Assembly (NCBI RefSeq): GCF_000799075.1
Contig: NZ_JTLI01000104.1
Coordinates: 1-39,914 of the forward strand
Direction of reading: 5' to 3'
Source of the DNA: Cetobacterium sp. ZOR0034
Lineage (GTDB): Bacteria > Fusobacteriota > Fusobacteriia > Fusobacteriales > Fusobacteriaceae
DNA length: 39,914 bases
Below, piece by piece: positions 2,942 through 11,000 of the stretch. A model generated the notes under the pieces. The model was not told the DNA's origin. It saw only the letters and a list, made by a program, of their open reading frames with translations, and searched no databases. How positions within the stretch are numbered: position 1 is the stretch's first letter; every line of letters begins with the position of its first letter. Position numbers and translations under genes: made by a program.

Positions 2942-3730
2942 TTACATTTTTTCAAAAACTGGGCCATCATTAAAAATTGTTATATCTATTTCAAACTCTT
3001 TTTTCAGTATATCTTCTAATAAGTTTGAAAAAACCCATTCACTTTCAAAATGTCCAATATCAATCAGACTAAAGTTTTCCTCTTTTGCATCCATGGCTTC
3101 ATGATATTTTACATCTCCTGTAATTAGAACTCCCGCTCCTAATTTCTTAGCTTTTCTCCAGTACGATGCTCCAGAACCACTTACTAAAGCTATTTTTTTT
3201 ATCTCTTTTTGCTCATTTGCTTTCACTACAGTTATACTATTTAACTCTAATTTTTCTTTCAATATTTCTGATATTTTTTCAAGAGATAAAGCCTCATCTA
3301 GTTTATACACTCTACCAATTCCATATTCAATTCCATTTTTTTCTAAAGGATCTAATATAACTCCATTTTTCAATTTCAATATATTTTCTCCTAAAAAATC
3401 ATTTAATCCATGTTTTGAAGAATCTAGATTTGTATGCATAGAATAAACTGAAATTTTATTTTCAATTAATTTTATTATTTTTTTTCCTGTTAATGTATCA
3501 CCAGTAATATTTTTTAATGGTTTAAATATCATTGGATGATGAGTTATAATTAAATTAGCTCCAACTTCAATAGCTTTATCTATGACCTTCTCAGTTAAAT
3601 CTAAAGCTAAAAGTATTCCATCTATCTTAGAATCTCTTTTTCCTACCAATAATCCAACATTATCCCACTCTTCTGCTAAAGATCTTGGGAATTTTTCTTC
3701 TAAAAAATTTACAAGTTTACTTAACTTCAT
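2942..3730 (-). CDS. Nif3-like dinuclear metal-centre hexameric protein (DUF34)
   Basis: The 262-residue protein carries all metal-ligand motifs of the Nif3/YbgI/YqfO family: His64-His65 in ITHHPM, Asp103 in HTNLD, and His227 with Glu231 in IGHFESE, after the N-terminal EEWDNVGLLVG signature. The family is annotated as GTP cyclohydrolase 1 type 2 homologues, but the physiological reaction is unsettled. This is the short form, without the PII-like insert seen in the roughly 370-residue Firmicute members. Its start overlaps the stop of the sigma-like gene by 4 bases (ATGA), so the two are translationally coupled. Confidence 0.93.
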   Translation of the reverse strand: MKLSKLVNFLEEKFPRSLAEEWDNVGLLVGKRDSKIDGILLALDLTEKVIDKAIEVGANLIITHHPMIFKPLKNITGDTLTGKKIIKLIENKISVYSMHTNLDSSKHGLNDFLGENILKLKNGVILDPLEKNGIEYGIGRVYKLDEALSLEKISEILKEKLELNSITVVKANEQKEIKKIALVSGSGASYWRKAKKLGAGVLITGDVKYHEAMDAKEENFSLIDIGHFESEWVFSNLLEDILKKEFEIDITIFNDGPVFEKM

Positions 3731-4563
3731 ATTTTTAAGCTTCTTCCTCCTCCTAAAGATATTTTAGTTAAAGCCTCTTCAAATAAGTGCTCTCCCTCTC
3801 CTCTTTTTAAATCTAAAGCATTTTCTATCTCAAATAAAGATTCTCTTTTTTCTCCTACTAATCCATAGTATCTTTTAAGTATCTCTTCCTCTGTATGAGA
3901 TATTTTTTTAGGAACAGATGTATAATCTAATTTTTGAAGTTCATTTATCTTCTCTTCTATAATTTCTGATCTCTCTTCCGAAGGAATAGCTTCTACTTCC
4001 TCATCCTCTTCTAATTCAGCAACTATCTCATGCTCTAAAACTTCCTCTTTTCTCTTCAAGAAGTAACCTCTATACATATGTTTCTCTGTTTCTACTCTTT
4101 CGTCAACAAATAATAGCATCTCTCTTCTAACCCATAATTTAATATATTCTAACAGCTCACCATTCGAAGGTCTATACTCATCTAAAGCTTTAATTACTCC
4201 TATGCTTCCCTCTTGAATTAAATCTAAATAGTCTATTCCAGCAATCAGATAATCAAAAGCTATATTTGCAACTTCTCTTAGATTTCCCTCTGTTAATGCA
4301 TGAAGACTCTCCTCTTCGTCTAATGTTTCTAATAATCTTTCTATATCTTTCTTTTCTAACGGTTGTATATATGAAATCTCTTCTAAGTATTCACCTACAA
4401 TTCCTTCTACAACATAGCTGTTATCTTCAACTTTTTCTTCTTTTCTAACATCTATACTATCTAACTCTAATTTTAATCCTGGATTCTCTTTTAAAAATTT
4501 TATAAACTCTTTATCTTCAACACAATTTGTTAATATCTCTTTTTCAAATACTTTTACTTTCAT
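3727..4563 (-). CDS. Degenerate sigma-70 family protein (RpoD paralogue)
   Basis: This 278-residue protein aligns with the neighbouring RpoD. Residues 52-120 follow sigma regions 1.2-2.1, and residues 114-130 (DLIQEGSIGVIKALDEY) nearly copy the core-binding segment of RpoD. Region 2.3 lacks the FSTYATW melting motif (LLEYIKLW instead); region 2.4 is WVRREMLLFVDE. The C-terminus (about 224-268) echoes region 4 (EEEILKRYYGL), but the recognition helix has lost the RERIRQ residues and reads RGEGEHLFE. A long acidic linker separates the halves. It probably binds core RNA polymerase; normal promoter recognition looks doubtful. An attenuator-like hairpin separates it from rpoD, and AAGGGG precedes its ATG. 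It could be an alternative sigma factor or a competitor of RpoD; I cannot decide from sequence. Confidence 0.75.
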   Translation of the reverse strand: MKVKVFEKEILTNCVEDKEFIKFLKENPGLKLELDSIDVRKEEKVEDNSYVVEGIVGEYLEEISYIQPLEKKDIERLLETLDEEESLHALTEGNLREVANIAFDYLIAGIDYLDLIQEGSIGVIKALDEYRPSNGELLEYIKLWVRREMLLFVDERVETEKHMYRGYFLKRKEEVLEHEIVAELEEDEEVEAIPSEERSEIIEEKINELQKLDYTSVPKKISHTEEEILKRYYGLVGEKRESLFEIENALDLKRGEGEHLFEEALTKISLGGGRSLKI

Positions 4564-4583: not shown

Positions 4584-4613
4584 AATATAAAATGGGGGCA
4601 CTAGTCTCCCCCA
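4584..4613 (-). terminator. Terminator or attenuator between rpoD and the sigma-like gene
   Basis: TGGGGG (4593-4598) and CCCCCA (4608-4613) form a 6-bp GC-rich stem with a 9-nt loop, followed on the minus strand by UUUUAUAUU. The downstream gene begins 20 bases further on with no clear promoter in between, so partial termination that lowers expression of the sigma-like gene is more likely than a full stop. Confidence 0.6.
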
Positions 4614-4618
4614 CATTT

Positions 4619-5854
4619 TTATACTTTAAAATCTTCTAATTTTTTTCTTCTACTTGGATGTCTTAATTTTCTAAGAGCTTTCACTTCTATTTGTCTGATT
4701 CTCTCTCTTGTTACTTTAAATATTTTTCCAACCTCTTCTAAAGTTTTCGGAGCACCATCATTCAATCCATATCTGAAGATTAAAACTTGCTCTTCTCTGC
4801 TACTTAAAGTTTTTAAAACATCATTTAATTGCTCTCTAAGTAAAGTTCTATTAGTTAGTTCATATGGATTTTGCATTTTGTTATCCTCTACGAAATCTCC
4901 TAACTCACTATCCTCTTCACTTCCAACTGGAGTTTCTAGAGATATAGGATCTTGATTCATTTCTTGGATACTTTTTATTTTGTCAACTTCCATACCTAAT
5001 CTATCAGCTAAAACTTCTGGAGTAGCATCTTTTCCTGTTTCTTGAAGGTAAATTCTAGCTTCTTTCTTTATTTTATTTATTGTTTCAATCATATGAACTG
5101 GTATACGAATTGTTCTTCCTTGATCAGCTATCGCTCTTGTTATAGCTTGTCTAATCCACCAAGTTGCATAAGTTGAGAATTTATATCCTTTACTGTATTC
5201 AAATTTTTCTACAGCTTTCATCAATCCAATATTTCCTTCTTGAATTAAATCAAGAAGTTTTAATCCTCTATTTGTATGTTTTTTAGCAATACTTACAACT
5301 AGTCTTAAATTCGCTTCTATAAGTTGTTGTTGTGAATATTCGTCACCTTCTAAAGCTGCCTTTGCATATCCTAACTCTTCATCATGAGTTAATAGAGGTA
5401 TCTGCCCAATCTCTCTTAAATACATTTTTATTGGTTCATCAACTTCCATCTCACCAGTAATGCTGAATAAATCATCATTTACTAAGTCATCTTCACTAAC
5501 TTCTTCTATATCATCTGGATTGAAATCGAAATCTTCAGAATACTCTTTACCTTTTTCCTCTTCATCATCGTCATCTTCAAGTTCAACAACAGGTCTCTTT
5601 ATTATTGGAGTTATAATTTTTTTTGCATCTTTTTTATCTTCTTCTTTTCTTTTTGTAACTTCTTGTTTTTTTACATCTGCTTGAGAAACAATTTTAATAC
5701 CTTGTTCCGTCATTCCATTTATTAAAAACTCTATTCTTTCAGGCGGAAAATCTGAACTTAATTTGCTATTAATCTCTTCATAGCTTATTACTTTATTTTC
5801 CATTGCCTTTCTTAATAAAGCTAAAACCTTTTCATTTTTTATAAACTCCTTCAT
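4619..5854 (-). CDS. rpoD: RNA polymerase primary sigma factor (sigma-70/RpoD)
   Basis: The 411-residue housekeeping sigma factor directs RNA polymerase to -10/-35 promoters. Visible in order are region 1.1 (about 1-57), an acidic linker (90-130), region 1.2 ([13 protein letters not shown], 139-151), region 2 with [17 protein letters not shown] (202-218), the melting motif [12 protein letters not shown] (226-237), RTIRIPVHM (247-255), region 3, and region 4 with [20 protein letters not shown] (371-390). A GAGGAGG ribosome-binding site precedes the start. It follows dnaG by 43 bases, the conserved dnaG-rpoD order of the macromolecular-synthesis operon, and is followed by a GC-rich hairpin. Confidence 0.98.
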
Positions 5855-9614: not shown

Positions 9615-11000
9615 TTATTTTGTATCTAATCCGTACTTTCTTATTTTCTCATAAAGAGTTGTTCTTCCAATTCCTAAAAGCTTAGAAGTTTCCTGCTTAT
9701 TCCATCTTGTTTTTTGTAATGCCATAGCTATTACAACTTTTTCAACTTCATCTAAAGCATAGATCTCTTGCTCTAATATATTTTTTAAAGGTCCTACTCC
9801 AATTACAGTTTTATTTTCAACTGTATCAGATTTCATTTTAATTTCTAAAGGTAAATCCTCTACATCAATATTTCTATCGTTACATAAAATTACCATTCTT
9901 TCAATCATGTTTTTTAACTCTCTAATATTTCCAGGGTATGAATATTCCATTAAATATTTCATAGCATCTCCAGAAATTACAGGAATCTCTCTTCTTAAAT
10001 CTTTTACTATTTTATTTAAGAAATAGTTTGCTAACATAGGAATATCATCTTTTCTATCTCTTAGAGGTGGAACTTCAATTGGGAAAGCTGTTAATCTATG
10101 GTATAAATCTTTTCTGAATTTACCTTTTTCAGTTTCCTCTTTTAAATCTCTATTTGTTGAAACAATAAATCTAACATCTACTCTTCTAGATTTATTTCCT
10201 CCAACTCTTCTGAACTCTCCATATTCAATAACTCTTAAAACTTTAGATTGAGCTTTTAAATCCATAGCTGAAATCTCATCTAAGAATACAGTTCCTCCAT
10301 CAGCCTCTTCTAAAATTCCCTTTTTACTTGTTGTCGCTCCTAAGAAAGCTCCTCTTTCATATCCAAATAACTCTCTTTCGATTAAATCTTCTGGTAATGA
10401 AGCACAAGAGATTGTGATGTAGTTTTCTTTTCTTCTATCACTTTTCTTAAATATCTCTTTAGCAATTAACTCTTTTCCTACTCCGTTTTCTCCAGTTATT
10501 AAAACTGTTAAATCACTTTCAGCAACCTTCTCGATTAAGTTTTTAACCTCTTTAACTCTTGCAGATTGTCCAATGATTTCATTTTCATCTTCGCTATCTG
10601 AAAGTTTCTCTTCTAATTTTCTTTTCTCTTTTACAATTTCTAAGTTTCTTAAAGCTGGTATCATTATTCTGTTCATTTCTTTTACATCTACTGGTTTTAA
10701 TAAGTAGTTATAAATATCAGCTTCCTTCATTTCTTGAATTAAAGCTTCGTTTTCTTCGTCTAATAATCCGATTACAACAAAGTCCTTTCCTATTCCATTT
10801 AATTTTCTTTTTGCTTCTGAGAAGTTAAACCAAGTTAAGTATTCATCTAATAATACCACATCAAAGTCACTCTCTCTTAACATATCTAACGCATCTAACA
10901 GGTTATTAAATGTAATTATTTCATAAACTTCTGACAAAGCTTTTCTTACTTGTTTTAACGTTTCTTTTCTTTCTGAAACTACTAATATCGATTTTTTCAT
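9615..11000 (-). CDS. NtrC-family response regulator with GAFLGA loop
   Basis: The 461-residue protein has an N-terminal receiver domain (phosphoacceptor Asp52 in VVLLDEY, Lys102 in LLKP), a AAA+ domain with Walker A GENGVGKE (170-177), Walker B VFLDE ending at Asp241-Glu242 and arginine-finger region FRKDLYHRL, and a C-terminal Fis-type helix-turn-helix (about 420-458). In the receiver, the usual acidic pair near the N-terminus is S9-E10. The sigma-54 contact loop, normally GAFTGA, reads GAFLGA (217-222), so ordinary sigma-54 activation is uncertain. No sensor kinase gene is adjacent. It has its own promoter with an inverted repeat over the -35 box and precedes a foldase gene, hinting at an envelope-related role. 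Confidence 0.92.
   Translation of the reverse strand: MKKSILVVSERKETLKQVRKALSEVYEIITFNNLLDALDMLRESDFDVVLLDEYLTWFNFSEAKRKLNGIGKDFVVIGLLDEENEALIQEMKEADIYNYLLKPVDVKEMNRIMIPALRNLEIVKEKRKLEEKLSDSEDENEIIGQSARVKEVKNLIEKVAESDLTVLITGENGVGKELIAKEIFKKSDRRKENYITISCASLPEDLIERELFGYERGAFLGATTSKKGILEEADGGTVFLDEISAMDLKAQSKVLRVIEYGEFRRVGGNKSRRVDVRFIVSTNRDLKEETEKGKFRKDLYHRLTAFPIEVPPLRDRKDDIPMLANYFLNKIVKDLRREIPVISGDAMKYLMEYSYPGNIRELKNMIERMVILCNDRNIDVEDLPLEIKMKSDTVENKTVIGVGPLKNILEQEIYALDEVEKVVIAMALQKTRWNKQETSKLLGIGRTTLYEKIRKYGLDTK

Follow-up and report, generated by a model that had tools for sequence, protein, structure and literature searches.

A conserved sigma-70-family protein usually encoded behind rpoD in Fusobacteriota: a candidate competitor or modulator of the principal sigma factor

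Bacterial sigma factors grip RNA polymerase and read promoter DNA with neighbouring but distinct surfaces: region 2.2 contacts the β′ coiled coil of the polymerase, and regions 2.3–2.4 contact the −10 element (review PMC4598750). In Fusobacterium nucleatum, a proteomics study lists three sigma factors, FN1091, FN1317 and FN1318, each with a change in one or more comparisons, and calls FN1321 AtoC-like (PMC4234264). FN1317 and FN1318 are adjacent loci, and two adjacent sigma-factor loci are also found in the stretch of DNA analysed here (the window), i.e. positions 1 to 39,914 of contig NZ_JTLI01000104.1 from the 2.74 Mb genome of Cetobacterium sp. ZOR0034. In the window, rpoD is followed by a gene for a second, much shorter sigma-70-family protein, here called the sigma-like protein. 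Because the spacing of the F. nucleatum locus matches that of the window (gene, rpoD, dnaG, PpiD-like protein gene and response regulator gene, the last corresponding to FN1321), FN1317 is probably the counterpart of the sigma-like gene and hence expressed; the likeness is one of locus order, and FN1317 and FN1318 are known through annotation and proteomics detection. The gene is so far annotated simply as a sigma factor, and the papers searched contain no functional study of either the sigma-like protein or FN1317.

Our comparison of sequences suggests that this gene encodes a sigma factor turned regulator or competitor, in which the polymerase-gripping part has been kept and the promoter-reading parts have been swapped. 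That such a protein would dock on core polymerase and there modulate or compete with RpoD seems to us about an even call. The reading frame comprises 278 open codons without frameshift or internal stop, its ATG is preceded by an AAGGGG ribosome site, and its parts are as follows.

3727..4563, reverse strand: gene of the sigma-70-family protein, 278 amino acids, between rpoD and nif3.
4414..4563, reverse strand: N-terminal segment, residues 1–50, outside sigma domain 2, with the family-specific motif FE...F..FL..N.
4093..4410, reverse strand: sigma region 1.2 to 2.4 domain, residues 52–157, from the AlphaFold2 model, the SigA superposition and Pfam Sigma70_r2.
4183..4227, reverse strand: region 2.2 core-binding helix LDLIQEGSIGVIKAL, residues 113–127, with QEG invariant in 26 relatives.
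3904..4092, reverse strand: residues 158–220, comprising an acidic linker and the last part of a long helix, which replace sigma region 3 and the 3.2 finger.
3730..3903, reverse strand: sigma4-like helix-turn-helix, residues 221–278 (58 C-terminal residues), from the alignment to sigma4.
3778..3810, reverse strand: replaced recognition helix LKRGEGEHLFE, from the alignment with RpoD and the helix-turn-helix charge.

The protein is a member of the sigma-70 superfamily by virtue of its sigma domain 2 and its region 2.2 core-binding helix, since both Sigma70_r2 and the broad superfamily model TIGR02937 score above their cut-offs and the sigma2 fold is present. Sigma70_r2 is its sole Pfam match (E 5e-11, 42.6 bits, cut-off 24), and TIGR02937 is passed only just (44.5 bits against a cut-off of 42.9); the scores for the RpoD- and RpoS-type family models lie under their cut-offs. 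A hidden Markov model search for sigma-70 regions 2 and 4, proposed as a check in the original prediction, thus finds region 2 but not region 4 (no Sigma70_r4 match in Pfam), and Sigma70_r3 is not matched either, whereas in the adjacent RpoD regions 1.1, 1.2, 2, 3 and 4 are all recognized. In the AlphaFold2 model (predicted local distance difference test, pLDDT, 86; predicted template modelling score 0.85), residues 51–157 superpose on domain 2 including region 1.2 of Staphylococcus aureus SigA (8x6f_E; Z 11.5, root-mean-square deviation 1.7 Å over 105 residues). The N-terminal segment is modelled with helices at residues 3–13 and 17–26, and its E7 is invariant across 26 aligned sequences; at linker residues 185–190 the pLDDT falls under 50, and across the genus the finger columns of the alignment are empty.

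Several sequence comparisons had been drawn in the original prediction, and they stand. In region 2.1–2.2, DLIQEGSIGVIKALDEY of the sigma-like protein aligns with a 17-residue segment of the adjacent RpoD, and the core-binding helix contains DLIQEG. The melting motif is indeed gone: where RpoD carries FSTYATWW, the sigma-like protein has ELLEYIKLWVRR, and identity to RpoD at the region 2.3–2.4 contact residues is 18% in the genus. Alignment also confirms that the basic recognition helix of RpoD has become LKRGEGEHLFE, which is acidic and contains two glycines. The mean net charge of the two helices of the helix-turn-helix is −3.7 in the genus, versus +4.6 in RpoD and +3.5 in the full-length relatives described below; that of the whole protein is about −31. 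Judged by its residues, the protein does not qualify for group 1 or 2 (the RpoD/RpoS type), from which it departs in the −10 and melting residues, in region 3 and the finger and in the −35-reading helix of region 4.2.

What selection keeps can be asked separately for the two surfaces. We compared a core-contact set, i.e. the positions of E. coli sigma70 residues 402, 403, 406, 407, 409 and 413, as well as a −10 contact set, with random residue sets, and the resulting fractions ignore kinship among the sequences. The core-contact set beats random sets in three groups, i.e. the full-length forms (fraction 0.02), the clade that includes the window protein (0.003) and the rpoD-linked forms from Leptotrichiaceae-like genera (0.02; the family label is inferred), and shows no excess conservation in the rpoD-unlinked Leptotrichiaceae-like forms (0.45). 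The −10 contact set is conserved in the full-length forms only (0.009), with no excess in the window clade (0.45) or in rpoD-linked Leptotrichiaceae-like forms (0.31). An intact core-binding segment, as originally claimed, is borne out by these results.

The ratio of nonsynonymous to synonymous substitution (dN/dS) of the gene is 0.04–0.08 in close genus pairs, below that of nif3 and above that of rpoD in each of the seven pairs listed, values that mark strong purifying selection on it in Cetobacterium. Within the genus, no segment is better conserved than the sigma4-like part, with 37 of 58 residues invariant and a median dN of 0.068. For this reason, the altered recognition helix is best described, as far as conservation can tell, as a maintained feature that was replaced and then conserved, and to speak of ‘eroded’ DNA-recognition parts, as had been done, is not appropriate.

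How such a protein could have arisen is suggested by its living relatives. Full-length forms of 332–356 amino acids, ten in all, occur in seven genera that are Fusobacteriaceae-like or sister to these, and carry FSTYATWW or a near variant, region 3 or a trace of it and a basic region 4; they also match regions 1.2, 2, 3 and 4, with RpoD/SigA and RpoS as their best-scoring models. On the RpoD tree, these full-length forms are basal and paraphyletic, and the short forms, that of the window among them, group together in a single clade (support 100/99). Change took a different course in the Leptotrichiaceae-like forms, and the form of genus g12 is altered in part; promoter contacts have thus been lost at least twice in this family, and probably three or four times, if g12 and the class-level outgroup G097 are counted. 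Tentatively, and with somewhat less than even confidence, we consider a Fusobacteriota-wide sigma-derived lineage that repeatedly gave up promoter recognition and kept core binding, its product being a competitor or an extra polymerase subunit encoded in the rpoD operon.

To call the gene a paralogue of the adjacent rpoD, as the original prediction did, is too strong. An approximately unbiased (AU) test, weakened by long branches, speaks against placing fusobacterial RpoD together with the full-length relatives (p 0.02) and, with the same limit, against a recent duplication of fusobacterial rpoD. The test thus makes the family look like an old branch of sigma-70 in Fusobacteriota rather than a copy of its neighbour, an assignment that long branches keep from being firm; the trees give it no settled placement between RpoD/RpoS and RpoH-like factors.

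A family member is present in 61 of the 61 nearest genomes (order Fusobacteriales, four families), including genomes of 1.2–1.7 Mb, where one genome (G004) is counted on a contig-end fragment alone and another (G050) has a copy with its N-terminus cut off by an insertion. Absence or neutral decay in relatives, named beforehand as evidence that would speak against a functional protein, was therefore not what we found, and the rpoD–gene–nif3 order proved to be the rule among these genomes. The usual arrangement is dnaG–rpoD–gene–nif3, with adjacency to nif3 nearly always and adjacency to rpoD usually retained. About 3.7 kb separates rpoD from the gene in two genomes of genus g12, and in the Leptotrichiaceae-like genera g19, g22, g23 and g27, whose genomes are mostly small, the gene lies apart from rpoD; it is not absent there, since a copy was located elsewhere in these genomes, in g19, g23 and g27 directly before nif3. 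Of two class-level outgroups, G097 carries the gene ahead of nif3 and apart from rpoD, and no member turned up in G061 (0.8 Mb). The genome scan also gave matches in Treponema and Clostridia, which are sigma factors of the ordinary kind (at L073 a sigma factor and at L074 RpoD itself).

Some individual loci may be mentioned here. In the interrupted copy of G050 (L092, contig C1, 2008–4130), an IS200/IS605 OrfB-like open reading frame of 417 amino acids lies between rpoD and the gene and removes roughly the first 70 codons; the remaining 253-amino-acid frame retains sigma2 and the sigma4-like part. Three relocated forms (L083, L108 and L113) have lost the QEG core motif (ELINET, ELVDEA and DLIAET) and still lie beside nif3. 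By model (pLDDT 88.8), the relocated forms still resemble sigma factors; the best structure match is weak (Z 7.3, within the chance range for helical proteins), and the top structural matches are nearly all sigma chains. On the Clostridia contig of L074 (4500–6418), a methyltransferase-like gene, possibly trmK, fills the slot after rpoD in which Fusobacteria have the sigma-like gene.

In the window, the sigma-like gene is accompanied by the following features.

4619..5854, reverse strand: rpoD, principal sigma factor.
About 4589–4617, reverse strand: terminator- or attenuator-like hairpin at the end of rpoD, from single-sequence folding.
2942..3730, reverse strand: nif3 family gene, with a 4-base overlap with the sigma-like gene.

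Upstream (5′) of rpoD are dnaG, a gene for a PpiD-like protein and a gene for an NtrC-type response regulator (9615–11000), and nif3 is followed by a gene for a 201-amino-acid protein (2365–2970), by appearance a TPM-domain protein, which occupies the same place in many relatives. The sigma-like gene starts 55 nt 3′ of rpoD, and the hairpin that had been noted in between is present and recurs in the family, but taken alone it is no stronger than shuffled sequences (z −1.1). Most Fusobacteriaceae-like genomes have an equivalent hairpin of differing sequence after rpoD, with z as low as −5. Alignment-based covariation gave no signal for the hairpin, the arms having been misplaced by the aligner, and its recurrence was judged instead from single-sequence folds. 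In Leptotrichiaceae-like genomes, the last rpoD codons (AGGAGCT plus the stop codon) form the 5′ arm of the hairpin and pair with GCTCCT in the spacer (L040, L041, L043, L044, L047, L051 and L089). Such a hairpin may hold the sigma-like protein below the level of RpoD.

Taken together, domain make-up, the pattern of conservation, purifying selection, repeated loss of promoter contacts and gene order would fit the following mechanism, for which the basis is comparative. Like RpoD, the Cetobacterium protein most likely uses its sigma2 domain to dock on the β′ coiled coil. Selection of −10/−35 promoters in the usual manner is probably absent, because no constraint holds the −10 face, the protein has neither region 3 nor the finger, and its recognition helix carries acidic charge. 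Occupation of the sigma site would then result in competition with RpoD or in a modified polymerase, and the dose of the sigma-like protein would depend on how far transcription reads through the hairpin that follows rpoD. A constrained core surface with released promoter contacts fits the roles originally envisaged, i.e. a competitor or decoy, or else a sigma factor of unusual specificity; an origin in a duplicate of the adjacent rpoD is not supported.

Several points weigh against a protein that binds core polymerase without reading promoters. The counterparts of Y430 and W434 persist in the window protein, with Y140 kept and W144 kept in most of the genus, the strongly conserved sigma4-like part could read another sequence, and some sigma factors of the extracytoplasmic function (ECF) type open promoters without a WW motif. 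Moreover, the core and −10 contact positions are those of E. coli sigma70, not positions drawn from a structure of the sigma-like protein. A working alternative sigma factor, which like a shortened group 3 or ECF-like factor would bind core and open promoters whose −10/−35 elements are altered, would account for these retained residues and for the sigma4-like part being so well kept, and full-length relatives in several genera do have all sigma parts including FSTYATWW and a basic helix-turn-helix. We nevertheless regard it as unlikely, though a serious contender, as −10 contact positions in the window clade are conserved no more than average, two glycines lie in an acidic recognition helix, and region 3 and the finger are lost from a strongly negatively charged protein.

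In the unlinked Leptotrichiaceae-like genera, where core contacts are not conserved, core binding cannot be the sole job of the protein. The sigma-like protein could also have left RNA polymerase altogether for another partner, possibly in the pathway of the nif3 product, given that adjacency to nif3 is kept when rpoD is elsewhere (g19, g23, g27 and f6) and that QEG is largely lost in those genera. We find this improbable: throughout the window genus and the clade around it, QEG is invariant and the core set is the conserved one, and the gene comes after rpoD. Hardly credible, finally, is the view that a duplicated rpoD is decaying here as a pseudogene, the one observation in its favour being that the promoter-reading motifs differ from those of RpoD; the gene is intact in nearly all relatives tested, its most altered part is its most conserved, a recent rpoD duplication is disfavoured, and we reject decay on the conservation pattern and the dN/dS values.

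If a core-docking modulator or competitor of RpoD is indeed what this gene encodes, the loss of DNA reading can turn sigma factors into regulators of core polymerase, and a sigma-derived regulator of this kind is in use across a whole phylum. Living genera hold full-length relatives as well as partial and degenerate ones, which makes the change testable stepwise.

Among known systems, the group 1 factors RpoD/SigA and the RpoS-like group 2 factors have the sigma2 fold and the region 2.2 core-binding helix in common with the window protein, which differs from them in having neither region 3, finger and FSTYATWW nor a basic recognition helix. ECF (group 4) factors are short proteins of sigma2 and sigma4 only, with a promoter reading of their own type; the window protein is built of sigma2 and a sigma4-like part, but includes region 1.2 and has no Pfam sigma4 match. 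Bacillus subtilis SigO/RsoA is a two-subunit sigma factor, in which a sigma2-like core-binding protein is separate from −35 reading; in contrast, a single chain holds both sigma2 and the sigma4-like part in the window protein, and there is no evident partner gene. Anti-sigma factors resemble the proposed role, in that both would lower RpoD activity. While anti-sigma factors bind sigma, however, the window protein resembles sigma itself and would bind core.
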